52,029 nucleotides of DNA from Sporodiniella umbellata (taxonomy: Eukaryota; Mucoromycota; Mucoromycetes; Mucorales; Rhizopodaceae): positions 1 to 52,029 of the forward strand of contig JAIXMR010000144.1 of assembly GCA_025677835.1 (NCBI GenBank). The letters run 5' to 3'. The number at the start of each line of letters is the position of its first letter. Positions within the stretch are counted from its first letter, which is position 1. Both the position numbers and the translations under genes were made by a program. Below are positions 10,930 to 25,995 of the stretch, piece by piece. The notes beneath the pieces are model-generated. The model was not told where the DNA came from. It did no database searches and was given only the letters and a program-made list of their open reading frames with translations.

Positions 10930-12194
10930 CTAGTGATGGCGTATATGTGTGTTGCCAAGTTTATCTTGAATTTCGTCCACATCAGACCCGCTTTGTTCAT
11001 CTTCACTTTCCTCTTCACTTTCTTCTTCACTATCCTCTTCATCTTCAGAAGAATCGTCAAAAGCAGTAAAAGCGGTGTCACGATTGTTGTTTTTGAACAG
11101 TAAATCGTCATCGTCGCTATCAAGACTGTCCCCTCTTTTAGCTATTTCTTCTTGCTTTTTTCTTTCATCTTCTTCCAACTGAGCAAGATATTCGTTTTGG
11201 ACAGCTATAACTTCGACAGAGTCCTTACATTTGGCATATCTTGTCAATAAACCCCTTTGGTTTGATTTATGAATCGTTAGCTGAGTAAACTAGCCTTTAA
11301 AAAAAAAAGCTTACCCGTTGACTTTCTTGAAAGCATGACCCCATTTGAATTTAGACATCAGCTCGTCACCATGCTCTGGAAACCCAGTAATATGAAATAT
11401 AGCTGCCAATGCTTCAGCACAGTTCAACTTCCAAGGCTTGCCATAATTGACTGGATTAGTTGCTACCAAATAGGGCAAGAGACGATCGGTGGGCCCTCTG
11501 ATCTTGGCAAAAGGAACTTCATCCAACCTTGCCCATGAACAGTCAACAACACCTGCACCATACAACTCAACAACCTTTCTGTCAGCAGGAGAAACGGCTT
11601 TTTCGCCTACTGGACTTTAAGTGCATAAAAACACAAATTCGTTAGATACACGAATTGATAACACAAAGATCGCTAACCTAGCAACTATTCCTCGGAAACG
11701 CTGTCCTAGTTTCAATGTTTTGAGCATGTCACATCTTGCTAGTTTGACGCCTGAACAACGTTTTGGATCACAGTGTTTGAAGTCCTAAAACACATATTAA
11801 TATACTGAAAACTAAAAAGCAGCGCCGCTTTACCCACATAGCTACAGGCATTGGAATATTAGATCTACTCTCCTCTTCCACTATTTCAAAAAGTCTTGTA
11901 AATTGCTTTTGTTCAAAAAGAAAAAGAAAAAACACTAAAAAAAAAAAACAGAACTTTCTTCTTACCGTTTCCAGAAAACTCTTCTCCAGGTGTTATGTAG
12001 CTTGCTTTGGCATAACGATCAAATCTAGATCCTTTGCTTAAAATTCCAGCACTTTAGCTTTACAAATTTTTTAAAAAGAGCAAAGCAACCGCTTAGAACG
12101 CTTACCTTGAATTTTTTTTTCCTGTAGATTTTGATCCAGAGGACTTCGAGGCATGAGAGCCATGGCTGTAGTCGTCTGAATTTTTCTTCCCCAT
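10930..12194 (-). CDS. TSR3: 18S rRNA aminocarboxypropyltransferase Tsr3
   Basis: Transfers the 3-amino-3-carboxypropyl group from S-adenosylmethionine to the hypermodified pseudouridine of 18S rRNA, a late cytoplasmic 40S maturation step. Six exons on the minus strand: 12194-12106, 12036-11966, 11880-11834, 11784-11678, 11614-11315, 11254-10930; introns 69, 85, 49, 63 and 60 bp; 939 nt, 312 residues. Diagnostic sequence: MPVAMWDFKHCDPKRCSG, then KLARCDMLKTLKLGQRFRG, GAGVVDCSWARLDEVPF, and RLLPYLVATNPVNYGKPWKL. The acceptor of exon 3 (ATAG at 11881-11882) was chosen because it is the only nearby one that keeps frame into the conserved core. The C-terminal tail is strongly acidic (runs of E, D and S), as in other Tsr3 proteins. 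The N-terminus is short, basic and Ser-rich. Confidence 0.95.
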
Positions 12195-12284
12195 TACTAT
12201 AGTATTGAAAAAGAACCAAGCAAAAAAAAATTTCAAAAAAAAAGGCGGAGAATTAAATAGGATTTCTATCCTAAAAAAAACTTG

Positions 12285-12505
12285 AAAACATGTTTAATTT
12301 GTTTCTTTTTTACACTTCTTATAAAAGTTGCTGTTTTATGTTTAGACCTTATACAATATTTACATTGGCTAACAATACTTATCTTTCAGATGTACTACCT
12401 CTTCTATTTTAAATAAATACTAAAACAGAAAATTATCCAAATTAAGGCTAAACTTTTATAAAAAGACAGGATTTTATTGGTTAGACTCATCTTCCGGAAA
12501 TAGTT
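12285..12505 (-). repeat. Dispersed repeat, copy A (inverted relative to copy at 23.1 kb)
   Basis: The reverse complement of this segment matches 23065-23300 over about 220 bp. The best block, minus strand of 12361-12420 against 23159-23220, shares a 19-base identical core (ACATCTGAAAGATAAGTAT) inside AAAATAGAAGAGGTA on one side and TTAATTTGG further upstream. I estimate roughly 80% identity by eye, with one 7-8 bp insertion in the other copy. It has no coding potential. The two copies point in opposite directions and enclose the gene desert and the PD-(D/E)XK pseudogene. Confidence 0.75.
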
Positions 12506-13140
12506 CTGTTTGTTAGCTGTTTGAAACAAATCAGTACAATATCTCCTGTATTTATCTGGAGCCATAGTGAGCTCATAAAACTAGGCAAGATCTTAGATTG
12601 TTACAACATTCAATCATACTACAGTTTCATAAATCACAAATGCTATATAGAGACATACTACTCAAATAGTAATAAAACCTTCTCTTCAAATCCTATTGAG
12701 TAGACCTATAACTTTCTACTTAATAAACGCAGCACTTGTTGAAATATTTCTAGGTCTTCTTGAAATTCAAAAATGCGCTTTTGTTCGGCTACCAAATCTG
12801 ATATGCGTTCTACTGGCACCTAAATTCTCCTTTAAGCTGCTGTAAAAATGTACGTATCTCAACACCAACTTTAGGCATTTAGTATATTATATCCCCACAG
12901 TGTTAAACGCTACGGTACTGCCAGTTTTACAAAGTATTTGAGTAGCTTAATACTCTTACATGACAGTGAATAATTTTGAGTATAAAGAACTTGGAGTACA
13001 TCTTTAATCTTTTTATAAATACAAAAATTTATCTATAGAAAACGAACACGGAAAAAAATATACAATCTTTATTTAGTCTAAAAGTACTCTTCTTAGTTAT
13101 CAAAAAAAGGGCTATTAAGCTCTTTTGATGATATGCAGAA

Positions 13141-13318
13141 TCAACCACGAGCAGGTGAGAGTACATCTGATTCCAAAAAGTATTCGAGCATTCTAGCTGC
13201 AAACAGTACCTCAAAGTCAGTAAACGGTACCATAAACTTCTAGAGTCTCTCTTCACATATTTCCAGAACTGTCTGACCACAAGGGTCATCAAGATCATCG
13301 ATATGTGGATGAATCAGG
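13141..13318 (-). pseudogene. Decayed coding fragment, unknown family
   Basis: On the minus strand one frame reads HPHIDDLDDPCGQTVLEI, then EERL, an in-frame TAG at 13240-13242, then KFMVPFTDFEVLFAARMLEY and SDVLSPARG before a TGA. The composition (Asp/Glu balance, hydrophobic spacing) looks like former protein-coding sequence rather than chance translation of AT-rich DNA, and the sequence here is less AT-rich than its flanks. I do not recognise the family. A competing frame of 89 codons overlaps it and looks like a shadow. A transposon-derived fragment is the likeliest origin, which is inference. Confidence 0.3.
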
Positions 13319-16300
13319 AAGAGTCCTTCCCTATCACTTTGTTTAGTGTGCGGCTCGATGGTTTACCCCAAGGCACAGTCAAACCACAGAATGGACTAAT
13401 CTCGCTTACCCGCAACTGTCTTCGGGTATGACTGACTAACTGCCAAGAAGGATCGTAGTAACATCCCAACAACCTAGCACAGATTATAGGCTAAATCGTC
13501 GTCTTGCCATAGGGGCTCTGGTTTGTTCAGCCTTCAGTGCTACCCTATACCTCTCAATAAAAGTATAGTTTTCAACGCCATCCGTACTGCACCTTGTCTA
13601 TAGATTGACGATAATAAACGGGACGGGTTTTTCACATTGCGAAGGTAAGTAAGGGCTGTAGTCAATTTATTATCCGTACACAAGCGTGTATATTGAGTTG
13701 CAGGACAATCTAAGGGTGTGAAGAACTACCATAAAGATAGAACACAAACAAAAGAACAGAGAGGGGCCCCCTATAGCCGTCAGAAAAAAAGTCTAAGTAC
13801 TAAAGAAAAAAAGAAAAGAAATTGAAAAAATGCCCTTTTTTTTTTCCTATATCTTTCTTCACATGAGAAACTTTTCTCCTTCTTTTTCAACTTCCGTAAG
13901 TAAACAAAAGAAAACACTAACAAAGCACTTTGCGCGTTCACTGATTTCCCTTTAGCTCCTGCCACATAGTAAAAGTTGTAGAGCAATCTCATAGCTACCC
14001 ATAGAGATGAGTCTTGACTGTTAAATCTCTTTTATAGCGCGCTTAAAAGTAGTTTTAGTATAGTAAACGAGCGTCGTTTGTCATACATGACATCACAAAG
14101 ACGATCAAGATCGTCTTTTCACGTCTATTTTTTCTGCCTTTTTGGTAGTACAATCAAACTCAATCTATAGGCACAAATTGTCTACATGAAAAAAAAAAAC
14201 GGCATACAATACTTGGTTTAATGAAATCAAAAACGTATATGAATCTGTCAACTGATGGAGCTATTTACAGCCAAGGTCTTACTAGAGTATCCATATACAT
14301 CTGATTAAAAAAAAAAAGTAAAGCAAACTGTGTTGTTAGCCCTGTCTTGGTTTTGGGTGATAATTTCGCTCAGACTATAATAACTTATTTGCAGCTTTTG
14401 TTTTTGTAAACGCTTAGACATATAGTACACTTTACTTTTCACTGATTGAAAATAGTAGACGTTTAGTTTTTACTCATACTTAGTGTAGTTTCTGCTGATA
14501 TTCAGGCTGTATATTTTTATTTTCTATACAATGTCTAAATTGCTCAAAAATAATGATCGTATTCATACCTTTTACAGTAAATACAATTTACAAAAGTAGA
14601 TCATTCGCCGATTTGATCATGTTTAATTTGTAAGACGAGATGTAAGCTAAAATTATGGAGTTTTTTATATTACACTTTTATGACTCTATGGACTGAGCAA
14701 ACACCTGAATTTGATTGTTGCGGGATACATGACTTCTTTTGCTAAATAATAATACCCATTCAATTGAGCTGAATGTAGCCCTTTTTTTTTATCTAATTGT
14801 ACTGGTATATACGTTTCCTGTAGTTAAGTAGACATGCTCCTCACGAAATTGCAGATTTTTCCAGACTTTTTACCGCAAGAGAAGAACCGTTAACTTTCCA
14901 ATTATGTTACGGTAATGACTGAGTAAATAGGCCTAAAAGTAAATTACAGTCTGGCTTTAGCTTATAAAAAATACATTATGCAATAAAAATACATTCTAGT
15001 AAAAAAATCCTTATAGCGATTTTATTTCTAGGTTTAGTTAAAAATCGAAGACCCTAAAACAATTATGAAGATTTTTCGACTGAAAGAAACTATACCTTTG
15101 CATTTTGGTCTGAAAGGAAAATTGCAAACTTACCAACTGGATTGCGAGTAGCGAGGCAATAGCGTAGCTTAAAGAAAGTAGAGGTTTATAGTGGCACTCA
15201 CTTATAAACATGGCGCATTATAACTACTCCCTATCTCAAGCTTTATTTTTTAGTCTGAGGAAATGAAGCCTAAGCCACCAAGGCTACTTGATTGTGCATT
15301 TGCAAAAGATTTAAACGCAGAAATAAAAGGGAGCAGACCCTGAAACAACTAGTTAAAATACCTGATTTTGCCTATTGTAAAGGCTAACAGCTGATATTTT
15401 TTAAGTCTAATGAACCTTATTTACATATTTATATGTTATAAAGATTCAAATCGAGGAGTAAATTTTCTTATTTTTGTTCCTCTGCTTTTAGTTTCGGCCA
15501 TCTGTTTTTATACATATATCTGCTTATAATCTTTAGCTTTAAAATGAGATAATGCTCAAATTTGTGTAACCAAGTCTTTTTTTTACCAAGACGTCTGTTT
15601 TTAAAGCTCTGTATGCTTTTTTCTTTTTTGTATTCAAACTAAATAGAATGGTTATAAAGCATATAATCTTGACGTTTTGAAATAACATGTAAGATTTGTA
15701 TATGATTTTTTTACTTCACATGATTTAGGTTTTGATAGCTTTATGTTTTATTCCTATAACAGTAATATATCTACTCCAGTCCAGTCCAGTCCGAAGTCAA
15801 TTACACAATACAGCCAACAGTCTGCTCAAACTTAGGCGTTGAATACTTTTGTGCTTCCAGTATATAAAGTGAAATATCTGATGTCACAAGAAACGTTTGG
15901 CTACATTATCTATATCATTTTCGATAATGCACAAATATAAATGCCTTAGGTGCTGAAAAATATTAAAGCCAAAATCAGAGCACTTTTCCTGTTTCAAACA
16001 AACTTATCTCAAGTGCCTGGCTACACTAATGAATCTAATGAACCTAGCTGTCTACAACCTTCCACTGTTGCTATAATATCATACTCACCGACCTTTGACA
16101 ATTGTAGCCTTCCTAGTGCTATATGTTCTCATTCGCTTCCTCAAGCTATGCCTTTAGAAATTATTCAAAGTTTAAATCATTATACAGAAAAAATATTCTA
16201 GCTTGCCTGAATTTGACTATGTATCAAAGCAAGACTCTTTTCAAAACCGAATCAAAAAACCAAGTATTATGGAACTCTGAGCACAATTCTTTTGCAAAGA

Positions 16301-19300
16301 AAAACAGAGTAACGGGTCAACCAAAATTTTCTGAGTTTTGTTCAGCTCATTAGCAGCCTTCTCAAAAAAAAAAAAAAAAAAAAAAAAAAAACAGCCCTCT
16401 ATCATTTGAAAGTTTTTCAAAAAATCTGTATGGCTTTTTGTTACTAGTTAGCATAATCTGTATTATTTTATTTGTACTAATGCTTGTGTGGTGTTTTAAA
16501 AAATGCGATACACACACAGGCTAGGTCAAGGATAGAAGCCTGTAAAACTGTTTAAAGTCAAGATACTTACACTTCGTTTGCCATTGTGTTATTGTAGGGA
16601 ATTAAGACTGTGTAATACACGAAGCCATTACTGCTAATCTAAGAATGAGCTCTAAAATCGATAAGCTTATGGTCTAGAGTCCCAAAGCGCAAGAATGAAT
16701 AGTCTGATTTGAGAAAGGTTGTTGGCCTTGAGACTGACTTTGTGGGTCAAAACTCAAGGTTATGCAGAAGAAACTTTATGGGGAAGGGCACTCTTCCTTC
16801 TAGTGAAAGTCAGATAATATATGCCTCCCCTTTTTCAGTGAACAGCAGAGTTATCACCCAATGTTGACACATCCCACTATTCCCAGCAGCCCAGATGACT
16901 TTCATATTTCTCGCCAACATAGCGAGCTTTTATCAATACAGAAATATTCAACTCACTTAATCATTAAGTAAGCAATTCTACCAACTCCAACAAGCTAGCT
17001 GTTTTTTTTTGCCCAGAATCTCCCAAGTCACCATTTGTTTCTTAGATGAACAATTTTATTAGTGCTATAGAATTAATTGACCATATTTGTTCTAAAAAAT
17101 AACTAAATTCTCCAATGATATTGCAAAAGGCAAAGCATCTTATATCATTCTAATCATTGAATTCCCTCGGATCACTATAGAAAGAAAACCCTCTCTTAAC
17201 TATCCAGCTAACATTTTAAATGCTGATAAACAGACTTCGTCAAACGGTTCTATCGCACAAAATTGGACAATTTTATTAGTAGTATTAATTCGGTTCATTT
17301 CTGTAACGAATTTGTTTAAAGGAAAGAGTTTGTATCAACAAAAGTCTTCCTGAACTGAAAGAACGCTACTAACTAATTGATGAGATTTACGTATATTGCT
17401 ATAGATATTAAAATGAGCTGCGATATGAGCTCGCTTCAGATAGTATACAATGATAAATCTTGTTTTATAGTATTAGAGTATAAACTTCGAATTTTTTTTA
17501 AAAAAAGGGAATGCTTTATTGGTCCCTTTATTTAACACTTTGAAAAAAATTATCTGATTTCACTTGCTTCCATAAAAGTAGAGGCTGGGCTAATTCAGTT
17601 AAAGATAGTAATAAAAAACATCGCCTTTTGCTCATTTATTTCTAAGATATATACAATAAGATGTCTTTTAAGAATTCCAAAGTTATGTGTTTCAACTCGG
17701 AACAAAAGTGGACTACATTAATGACTTTAATTTAGCACAAGTATGTGGTATATAGTTTATAGAAGTAGCAATATGTTCAACGAAGCCTAGACAAAAAAAA
17801 TATACCATTGATCTGCCGCCTACCTCAGCAAAGCCTCAACGTATAGCCTCAATTGATTTGTAACTAGGACTAGTGTGAGGTTTATGGATAGGTCGAGCTG
17901 CTTTTTTCTCTCAATTAGTTTTGTTTTTACCTTACTGAAAAGTTAGAGGGAGAGTGCCAATCGTCATTGAAACGAATAAATTGAGCTTAGAGACTCATAT
18001 ATTAAAAAAAAAAAAAATGAGTGGAGTATCAGATTTTTGAGCAGATTTGGATAATGTTGAAGAATATCAAAAATCACAAAAAGTCGGTTTCATAATACTT
18101 TAAAGAACTAAGAACAGGCCTTCTGGTTTTTAGTAAGTCTTGTTGTTTTTATTATTAATGACTTTACTATCTTACCCCTTGTGCTCTATATATCTTAAAT
18201 GAACAACATATAAACGGCATTGATAAACTTCATACAAAATAGCGGATAGAGCATCAAAGACTAAAAGATAATAATCTGTACTGTTTACAATGACTTGCGA
18301 CTAAAGGAATTAGGTAACGGGTTTCAAAAGAAGACTCAACTAAACACAGTCAAAATTGGAAAAAACAATTATTGAAAGTGACAGGATATAGGTGAGAGAT
18401 ACAAAACAAAAACTCTTGACATTTTGCATTTTATTGCGTTCTCATATATTTGCCGATTCATAGCAAAGTACCAAAAGATCGTGAAGTTTGTTAAAAGATG
18501 CCAAGTCTAAATAAAATGAGCCTCAGAACTGATAAACTGTTGATTACTTATATATAATTCCTTATTTCATAAGCTCCCAGAGAGATCTGTTTTTGATCCC
18601 AAAGTGAAATGAAATCAACAAAAAAAAAGATACAGAGCGCTTTTGGAGTTGTATATCAGCTCAAGTCAGTGTTATGAGCTTGCTTCTATTGACTTTAACA
18701 TTTGAAGAAGTTATGCTTCCAGTGTTCATAATCGCTTTTGTATATTTTAATGACGCCCTAAGAGTAACGTCTAGAAAAAGAAACATTCTACGGCTTTATT
18801 AAATATCACGCTGTTTTTTGTAGATTTGACACCTCATATATTCTTTTTTTTTTTTCAAATTGTATATAGTTTGTATATTTCATGTAGTTTTTAAAATTAA
18901 TTATTATAAAAAACTTAAAAATAGATATCTTACCACAAAATAGAGGTAATCTTATCTTCTTTTATATTTCTTTTTCTCTTATTATATTTAAGTTATCCCT
19001 TAATTCATTTAGATATATATAATGTGGTGGGACATTTTATAAAGTATTTTCATCGTTACTCTAAAAATATACTTGTTTTCTGATTTCCGGACGAAATGAG
19101 CTAGTCATTAAGATTTTTAAAAACAAATTTCTGACAAACTCTTTCAACATAGGATAGGACGCTATGTACACCTTTTGAAAAAAATTACCCGGAAAAACAG
19201 TTCCCTTGTAATTCTTTCTTTTTTAAACAAGTCTGCTTCTAGTGCACTCATCTAAACACTTCTGTGAGTTGCTGTTTTCAATAGTAATGTATCTAGTTTA

Positions 19301-19371
19301 CAGTCGATTTTTTTTATTTATTACGCGTCTTTTTTCATGACGCACTTCGAGCGTTGATTGATGCAAGTTTC

Positions 19372-19576
19372 TATTTAAAGCCAGAGGGGGCTGGAATGAT
19401 AAACTGCGTTTTCTTTTCTCTGTTCATCAACATTGGAAGTATGGTCTGCGCCCGTTCCGCATCATCAATGGGGTCCTTGCAAAGTATGGTCTGCGCCCGT
19501 TCCGCATCATGCGGGTAAGCTTTCTTGAGTTAGTCGGCCTGATGAACAGAGATTAGAAAACCTTTTTTTTTTTTTT
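19372..19576 (+). ncRNA. Candidate structured ncRNA gene (TATA, closing stem, two direct repeats, T14)
   Basis: Seen directly: a TATTTAAA box at 19372-19379; 22-nt arms at 19408-19429 and 19540-19561 that are reverse complements at 20 of 22 positions (a T-T/T-T mismatch pair in the middle); a T14 run at 19563-19576, one base after the right arm; and between the arms two identical 29-bp direct repeats at 19437-19465 and 19482-19510, 16 bp apart. Each repeat is about 55% GC in AT-rich surroundings and can fold on itself: ATG plus TGCG pairs with CGCA plus CAT around a CCCGTTC loop. The spacing, TATA about 29 bp before the left arm and T-run right after the right arm, matches a type-3 Pol III gene for an RNA of about 155 nt closed by a long stem with two identical hairpins. 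It does not match U6, SRP, RNase P/MRP or 5S RNA as I know them. A terminal-inverted-repeat MITE is the main alternative, but I see no target-site duplication. Strand is set by the TATA and T-run. Confidence 0.45.
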
Positions 19577-19651
19577 GGTTAAGTTCTTTCTATTTTTACA
19601 CGCTTTTAGCAACTTTTGAATAACTAATTAACTAAACATAGTTCTCCTTTT

Positions 19652-19674
19652 GTCATGGCACTAGTTGCCATGAC
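19652..19674. repeat. Perfect 9-bp inverted repeat with 5-bp loop
   Basis: GTCATGGCA (19652-19660), loop CTAGT, then TGCCATGAC (19666-19674), a perfect dyad. It lies 75 bp after the T-run of the 19.4-kb element. It could be a protein-binding site or a hairpin; function unknown. Confidence 0.5.
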
Positions 19675-20524
19675 GACAAATATTACCTGTGGCTCCTTAT
19701 CTGATCAACAAACGAAGCTCCCGTAAATTGCAGCCCTGTATCCGTCTCCTGGCATACTTTAGTTCAAGCACAGTTCTCCTTGTTTTACTTTACAACATTT
19801 TAGGATTCTTACTGTTAAAAGCCTCAAGCCCTTTGTTACCAGTTTTTATCTAATAGACTGTCATTTCTTTTTGAATATTGTATTTTGTTTTGCTTTTGTC
19901 ACCTTTCAGTCAGTTTGTTGATCTACTAGCTTCTTTTTTACAAATATTCATGTATACGTAATACCTGCCCCTATCCTTTAATTATGGCACAATAAAGAGT
20001 ATCGTGTAGAATACAAGAGTTATTTATCTAAATTCATTTATCCCTTTATTTTTTTTTATAATATATATTATGTATACTATACATTCTATTTTTGATTGTT
20101 CTATAATAATTTTATATGCTTAATTTATTTTTGAATCTAAATTTCTTGTTGTATTTTATCAAATTATTGATTACTATAATTGCTTCTGTGAAATTATGTC
20201 TTACCATCTATTCTTTCAGTAGTAGTGGTCTAATTTCATAATTTTTTTTTCTCCCTAAAAAATTAACTAAAAAAAGCACGTTGTAAGTTCTTTTACAACT
20301 TACACCTTTTTTTGAATAATAGACTAATTATAAGGATTACTAAAATAATAGATATGTATAATAATGAAACTATAATAAAATAGTTATTAACGTTACTCAA
20401 ACAGGTCACGATTAACGTCAAACTATTTACAAAATACTGGACACCTATCGACTTTCATCTTACCCCCTTCTTGTTTTTATTCACAAAAAAAGTTTGTTTT
20501 GTATCTGTTCTTTCTTATTTCTCC

Positions 20525-24759: not shown

Positions 24760-25995
24760 ATGTCAGTACAATTACATGCATCTGTTCTTCAGTTTTTGGT
24801 AGATCATGGTTATGTTGAAACGCTAGACGCTTTTAAAAAAGAAGCCAAAGCGGTTTTGGATAATGCCGAAGAGGAGTACTCAAGCTCTTCTGATGAACTT
24901 GCTCGTCAGCTATCCCAACTACAAATTCAAAGGTAAAAGATTGCCACTGAAATGTCTTTTACTAATTTGCCTAGGAACAATGAACTTGCAGAAGGAGACG
25001 GGGAATACTTTACTACTCTTATTTGCGAGTACCCGGATATTCACTATGCTAATATACTAGCTGTTGCAGTGGACCCCCAAAGCCGGTTGTTAGCAACAAG
25101 TGCCATTGACAAAACTGTCAAATTGAGCAATTATATGAATCCAACCCTGATACCCAGAACCTATCGGCATCATCAAGCCCCTGTGCTTAGCATCGAATTC
25201 CACCCAAAGCACCCACAGTTTTTGCTGACGACGTCCATGGACGGTAGCAGTGTGATTGCCGATAGTTCGTTTGAGCCTGAATTCGGACAGGATCTCGAAG
25301 TAGCTGGTGTTCACCAAGTCTTTAAAGACCATAAAAAGTATGTTGTACGCGGTCTGTTTTCACCCGATGGAGACTATATGGCTACTGCCTCGTACGATCG
25401 TACCGTTTGTATTTATAAAAACCAGTCGAAAGAAATGCCCAAGTATGAGCTGGTGAAACAAGTAGGTCCCTTCTTGGGCAATGTGGAGTCTATTTGTTAT
25501 GGCAAAGATCAGCTTATTCTAGGTGTCCGTAACGACAATTATTTGCATTACATCCATCTACCTAGTCTTAGTATAGAACGCGTCAACATGAACTCTACGG
25601 GAGACGACTGGGTCTCTTTTTCACCTGTTCATCTTTCAGTTTCCCCTGACGGAAAGCATTTACTGTGTACAACTGATCATGCAAGTGGAAGAACGATTTT
25701 GTTTGCCATTGGAGAGTCAAGGCAATTACAAAATTATTATGTGAATGCAAGTGACAACCAGTTTGTTACCAGACTTCATGCCTGGCATCCCTCCGGCCTT
25801 TACTTTTATGCTACTGGAAATGATGATCATTCTATCTCGATTATCGAAGCCAAGACAGGATCCGTAGTGCATCAGCTGCAAGGACATAAGGCCATGGTTC
25901 GCTCACTTGTCATTAGTCCAGATATCGGGCTGATCAGTACGGGATATGACCAATCTGTCAAGATTTGGTCCTGGGAACACACAGCATCGCGTTAA
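24760..25995 (+). CDS. LisH-domain WD40 repeat protein
   Basis: Two exons, 24760-24932 and 24975-25995, with a 42-bp intron; 397 residues. The N-terminus (residues 4-36, LHASVLQFLVDHGYVETLDA) is a LisH dimerisation motif. The rest is a WD40 propeller: repeats with recognisable ends include LLATSAIDKTVKL, GDYMATASYDRTVCIY and the final GLISTGYDQSVKIWSW, with GH-type starts such as LQGHKAMVRSLVIS. LisH-WD40 proteins are usually scaffolds (Lis1, TBL1, ubiquitin-ligase adaptors), but I cannot place this one in a named family, so no substrate is claimed. It begins 48 bp after the PRMT1 stop on the same strand, so their regulatory regions must overlap. It is convergent with BCP1, with 111 bp between stop codons. 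Confidence 0.88.

Follow-up and report, generated by a model that had tools for sequence, protein, structure and literature searches.

A single-copy candidate for an orphan Pol III-type RNA gene in an intergenic tract of Sporodiniella umbellata

The intergenic tract and the layout of the element

The window analyzed here is a stretch of 52,029 nucleotides from the fungus Sporodiniella umbellata. It contains an intergenic tract of about 8 kb, roughly from 12.4 to 20.4 kb, that extends from a TSR3-like gene to the frames found from 20.4 kb on. The frames of the TSR3-like ribosome biogenesis protein are on the minus strand (10930 to 12293), and a 101-aa piece of them matches Ribo_biogen_C (2.8e-42). 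Farther along, at 24937 to 25992, a WD40 protein is encoded that matches proteins from Rhizopus stolonifer (76% identity) and Rhizopus arrhizus (69%), followed by other Mucorales (among the best 120 of 1253 matches), which places the genome in Rhizopus or near it. At the very start of the tract, 96 bases (12400 to 12496) have 83% matches at five further places, and a longer match, of 81%, at a sixth. A sequence-only reading of this DNA had described the tract as a gene desert. It is intergenic over about 8 kb, but it is not empty, since a mobile repeat and also a pseudogene in decay lie within it. The mobile repeat (13081 to 14153, ca. 1.07 kb) has 97% copies on contigs C144 and C48, while elsewhere there are many partial ones at ca. 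66 to 82%. The pseudogene (17767 to 18664) is a decayed, intron-bearing copy, with 64% identity, of a multi-exon gene (L041) on contig C119, and its presence within the 5 kb upstream of the element indicates that the tract tolerates junk. The element itself starts ca. 740 nt beyond the pseudogene. The 4-kb piece around the C119 gene is similar to 17767 to 18664 and elsewhere gives only short, weak matches; no counterpart of the element was found in these 4 kb among the matches listed, which beside the element amount to stretches of 24 to 32 nt with E values of at least 0.05.

The arms, direct repeats, T-run and TATA-like word described from the sequence alone at 19372 to 19576 were all confirmed. 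On the plus strand, the element opens with the TATA-like word TATTTAAA (19372 to 19379), a candidate core promoter, and the left arm of an inverted repeat starts 29 nt beyond its last base. The two 22-nt arms (19408 to 19429 and 19540 to 19561) are complementary at 20 positions, and their two mismatches would form a UU/UU internal loop, dividing the closing stem into 7 + 13 pairs. Between the arms are two exact 29-nt direct repeats, at 19437 to 19465 and 19482 to 19510, with a start-to-start spacing of 45 nt. A single C separates the right arm from a run of 14 T residues (19563 to 19576), a candidate Pol III terminator. From this layout, an RNA of ca. 160 nt would extend approximately from 19402 to 19566 on the plus strand, if its 5' end is assumed to be ca. 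30 nt past the start of the TATA-like word and its 3' end is placed in the T-run. Within the right arm, at 19542 to 19556, the word ACAGAGA is followed by TTAG; both words are also found near each other in the U6 RNA of the same genome, possibly by chance. A hammerhead was considered from the words CTGATGA and GAAA in the right arm and rejected, as no stem could be seen by eye between them. About 75 nt beyond the T-run, at 19652 to 19674, GTCATGGCA is a perfect inverted repeat of 9 nt around a loop of 5 nt.

Within its 8-kb intergenic tract, the element forms the GC peak. The GC content of 19402 to 19562 is 48.4%, the 500-nt flanks being at 29.6% and 32.0%, and it is equaled or exceeded by 24 of the 7517 other 161-nt segments between 12.4 and 20.4 kb. 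The next separate peak of the tract (49.1%) is inside the mobile repeat, at ca. 13.3 kb. The inner part, from 19430 to 19539, has 54.5%, a value attained by none of the 7671 other 110-nt segments of the tract. When the whole window is considered, exons included, 1.5% of the 161-nt segments are as GC-rich as the element.

We then have to consider how easily such an arrangement could arise from base composition. Inverted repeats were counted when they had 22-nt arms with at least 20 pairing positions and a loop of 20 to 200 nt. Fourteen arm placements in the window qualified, and the only one that was not of low complexity was the element, at 19408 to 19561. In 20 runs of a first-order Markov model, with sequences built in 1000-base blocks so that local composition was kept, no such arm cluster appeared with at least 20 pairs (0/20), and the mean number per run was 0.1 with at least 19 pairs and 0.7 with at least 18. 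A 200-kb sample of contig C79 contained two arm pairs of equal quality, both of them simple purine/pyrimidine tracts, one entering a T-run. Runs of at least ten T residues are common (26 on the plus strand of the window), and one begins within 5 nt of 0.3% of the plus-strand positions; a TATA-like word occupies a given 15-nt slot at 3.0% of positions. As for the direct repeats, the 29-mers are the only exact complex repeats of at least 25 nt found within 300 nt of each other in the window. The same search in the 200-kb sample gave nine entries from three places, and in all of them the repeats were in tandem or almost so (spacings of 21, 27 and multiples of 37). Composition alone hardly yields this conjunction of arms, T-run and TATA-like word, by chance figures that were calculated post hoc, once the element had been chosen.

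The assembly (25.9 Mb in 198 contigs) contains a single copy of the element: the sole match was the element itself, in a search that skips common words, so that old copies could escape it. Allowing up to three mismatches, the 29-mer was found in the assembly only at its own two places. The window had no Rfam match at the gathering score. Even at E ≤ 10, the region from 19200 to 19750 gave four matches, all well below the gathering score; two of them are on, or partly on, the element or the T-run, including an A/T-rich one on the minus strand. The earlier statement that the element could not be matched to a known RNA family stands in this sense. The tRNA scan of the window was also negative. 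An exact 23-base core of the element was absent from the IMG/VR and GTDB contigs, which are viral and prokaryotic and have little bearing on fungi, and topic searches of the literature, made by subject and not by the sequence of the element, retrieved no paper on it.

Predicted folding and the two modules

In the predicted fold of the whole RNA, the 20 pairs of the closing stem have probabilities of 0.84 to 1.00. The plus-strand fold has a z score of -3.46, with none of 200 shuffles equally stable, and the minus strand is much like it (z = -3.58). The interior taken alone showed no extra stability, since 396 of 500 Markov shuffles folded as well or better. It follows that the low fold energy of the whole RNA stems from the closing stem.

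The two repeats had been proposed to form the same small hairpin. In isolation they do, each 29-mer giving an identical hairpin of 4 + 4 pairs (-3.2 kcal/mol), but the predicted fold differs in the context of the whole RNA, in which the upper four pairs of the hairpin have probabilities of 0.24 to 0.36 in copy 1 and of only 0.01 to 0.02 in copy 2. A larger plan, of 40 nt, can be drawn for both copies in a common register. Each of these putative modules (19431 to 19470 and 19476 to 19515) would consist of a 5-pair lower stem, a RAAGU bulge, four pairs, a UC bulge, four pairs and a 7-nt loop, and would hold one copy of the 29-nt repeat. The lower stems, CAUUG/CAAUG in module 1 and CUUGC/GCGGG in module 2, differ at four of the five pairs and yet can pair in both modules, with two U-G pairs in module 2. 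On the minus strand this pairing is lost (two pairs at best). Random flanks with free offsets reproduced the agreement of the lower stems in 0.26 to 0.31% of trials under three nulls, and a column-shuffle control, weak because it has two sequences only, reached it in 53 of 500. A fold that includes the two modules lies 7.2 kcal/mol above the minimum (-47.2 versus -54.4), and the module sequences alone fold at least equally well on the minus strand (-6.0 and -10.5 kcal/mol, versus -5.6 and -8.4 on the plus strand). As the energy model favors another fold and the minus-strand modules fold at least equally well, the putative two-module structure should be considered a lead rather than a result.

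Comparison with U6, RNase P RNA and U6atac

Three known Pol III genes of this genome served for comparison, U6 (contig C11), RNase P RNA (C64) and U6atac (C157, L037, 1392 to 1501), all of them above the Rfam cutoffs. In U6, TATATAA begins 29 nt ahead of the model start, and the gene finishes with T8. In RNase P RNA, TATTTAA begins 26 nt ahead of the model start, and the only T-runs downstream are T5 and T6. U6atac finishes with T9 and lacks a TATA near -30, its one TATA-like word being ca. 109 nt upstream. A TATA near the expected position was found in two of the three; the element has TATTTAAA at 19372, ca. 30 nt ahead of its assumed 5' end. There is a resemblance in base composition, since the known genes are also GC-rich blocks (42.0, 44.2 and 42.3% for U6, RNase P RNA and U6atac, respectively) in AT-rich flanks of 27 to 35%. 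The T-run of the element comes one base past the stem and recalls the long runs directly after U6 and U6atac, although T14 exceeds the T8, T9 and T5/T6 of the known genes. Internal T4 runs are present in RNase P RNA (three, plus one T5) and in U6atac (two), so that the two T4 runs in the left arm of the element need not stop Pol III. The element differs from all three in having no sequence or covariance match to them and in its 22-nt closing stem placed right against the T-run.

No internal promoter was apparent in the element, as would be expected of a type-3 gene. There is no B box within two mismatches inside it, the only match between 19300 and 19800 being downstream, at 19761, and A-box-like words at two mismatches showed no excess (14 seen versus 15.2 expected). 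A PSE-like upstream motif common to the element, U6, RNase P RNA and U6atac was also sought, and gave five weak matches versus 3.0 ± 2.9 in shuffles, no more than chance. For Lichtheimia, the pertinent passages of PMC4133162 report that no Pol III promoter motif of the expected types turned up, and they leave several ncRNA candidates uncharacterized. Altogether, the type-3 Pol III layout claimed from the sequence appears plausible by the TATA of U6 and RNase P RNA and the T-runs after U6 and U6atac, but it is not a uniform property of the genome, given the U6atac gene without TATA near -30, the short T5 and T6 runs after RNase P RNA and the lack of a common upstream motif. The interpretation as a type-3 Pol III gene is, on this comparison, partly supported.

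Interpretation and comparison with known systems

The layout, the polarity, the terminator, the GC contrast and the rarity favor a small-RNA gene on the plus strand read by Pol III. The polarity is concordant for that strand in three respects, the TATA-like word upstream, the T14 run downstream and the U-G pairs in the lower stem of module 2. Our best explanation, which we hold at about even odds, is a single-copy, lineage-specific gene for an orphan structured non-coding RNA of the Pol III type, of ca. 160 nt, with helix-locked ends and one motif present twice. Transcription of the plus strand would be directed by the TATA-like word of a type-3-like Pol III promoter and would stop within T14. 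Pairing between the 5' and 3' ends would then give a 20-pair helix that closes and protects the RNA. The 29-nt motif would be displayed twice inside; in the simplest case one protein would bind to it at both sites, or it would serve as a double pairing site, and through this doubled motif the RNA might act as a scaffold or decoy. Transcription, the polymerase, the RNA ends and the binding role are all parts that we infer within this explanation. Several results count against it, namely the interior fold, the energetic cost of the modules (7.2 kcal/mol), the similar minus-strand fold, the weak column-shuffle control, the lack of a common promoter motif, the U6atac gene without TATA, the tolerance of the tract to junk and the 1.5% of segments in the whole window that are equally GC-rich.

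The chief rival is a functionless mutational relic, in which a local inverted duplication (by template switching) and a short direct duplication of the filler type would have arisen in intergenic DNA undergoing decay, beside a homopolymeric T-run of a type that is common in this genome. The pseudogene and the mobile repeat of the tract would fit such a history, as would the abundance of T-runs, an interior that folds no better than shuffles and the lack of any homologue in the assembly searched. It accounts less well for three polar signals in register, for the GC peak and for the agreement of the lower stems of the modules, and the other close exact repeats of the 200-kb sample were tandem. 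We regard the relic as a serious possibility, albeit a doubtful one.

The element could also be a known housekeeping RNA (RNase MRP, SRP RNA, telomerase RNA or a snoRNA) diverged beyond its Rfam model. About 160 nt is short for an MRP or SRP RNA. In favor of such an identity, neither of the two was found in the assembly (RF00030 had a best E value of 3.48, far below the cutoff, and RF00017 and RF01502 had no match at E ≤ 10), although the relevant part of PMC4133162 gives a single MRP RNA for each basal fungal genome, and an SRP RNA in Rhizopus oryzae. Against this, the Rfam matches at the element are all well below their gathering scores. For telomerase RNA, the plus strand of the element was searched for CTAACCC, allowing one mismatch, with a negative result; the only telomere-like repeat seen in the genome was one internal (TTAGGG)4. 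For a box C/D snoRNA, the C-like box CTGATGA is at 19539, in the 3' part instead of at the 5' end, where no such box was found within one mismatch. A diverged housekeeping RNA seems improbable.

We give a slender chance to a small-RNA precursor, in which Dicer would cut the 22-nt stem at the ends of a Pol III transcript, as in the Pol III-made milRNAs of Neurospora. The stem is of Dicer size and is placed at the RNA ends, and the absence of a good A or B box is shared with milR-1, a Pol III product that, according to the pertinent part of PMC3547838, has TATA-like elements and neither an A nor a B box. The idea that the long stem feeds the RNAi machinery, already raised in the sequence-only reading, did not receive direct support: near-perfect second sites for the stem sequence in the assembly were not above the control (12 other places, all with three mismatches, versus 9 for the reversed control), and the 29-nt repeats and the GC-rich interior would be left unexplained. 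A DNA-level element, either a degraded MITE or paired repeats to which protein binds, would be in keeping with direct and inverted repeats in intergenic DNA. The sequence-only reading had named homologues elsewhere with target-site duplications and empty sites as the mark of a MITE; the absence of a second copy in the assembly and of any duplication of at least 2 nt at the arm ends (the left flank ends in CTGC and the right flank starts with CTTT) weakens this possibility, and makes a DNA-level element very unlikely in our opinion. Finally, the element could hold the first exon of a gene for a small secreted peptide, with its ATG at 19396, a length of 40 codons and the 45-nt repeat kept in frame. 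This would suit the plus-strand open frame from 19297 to 19518 and a repeat spacing divisible by three, but it is scarcely credible, with no homologue (no candidate shared three words), no Pfam match and equally long open stretches in the same non-coding tract.

We return to the orphan Pol III-type RNA gene as the preferred reading. The element is a candidate, and an unproven one, for a known kind of RNA. In early-diverging fungi, both the Pol III promoters and the ncRNA repertoire are poorly known. If the gene is real, with its TATA and T14, the way in which Mucorales read Pol III genes could be examined on it as a simple test case, and it would provide a usable pair of strong terminator and promoter. 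If it is a relic, it warns against taking layout for function in AT-rich genomes.

Among fungal systems, the structured ncRNA motif candidates presented in the part of PMC5640933 that concerns us are similarly orphan structured RNAs found by sequence; they rest on the comparison of many genomes, and the element on one. A word search of the main text of PMC9757828, on fungal hairpin small RNAs, gave no mention of Rhizopus or Mucor. The milR-1 locus of Neurospora resembles the element in its TATA-like elements, in the lack of A or B boxes and in its hairpin precursor, as described in the pertinent part of PMC3547838. The element differs from milR-1 in its 110-nt loop with a repeated motif. In animals, the Y and vault RNAs are small Pol III RNAs with paired ends, a U tail and protein-binding elements on display, and the proposed RNA would be like them in each of these traits. 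It would differ in having no match to their Rfam models at the gathering threshold, in being fungal and in its duplicated 29-nt motif. By analogy, it might represent a lineage-specific class of Pol III RNAs of early-diverging fungi, helix-locked and carrying two 29-nt binding motifs on separately evolving lower stems, that would titrate an RNA-binding protein as a scaffold or decoy. We put this wider proposal forward only tentatively and consider it unlikely as it stands; Y RNA and the bacterial CsrB provide the model for such titration of an RNA-binding protein.
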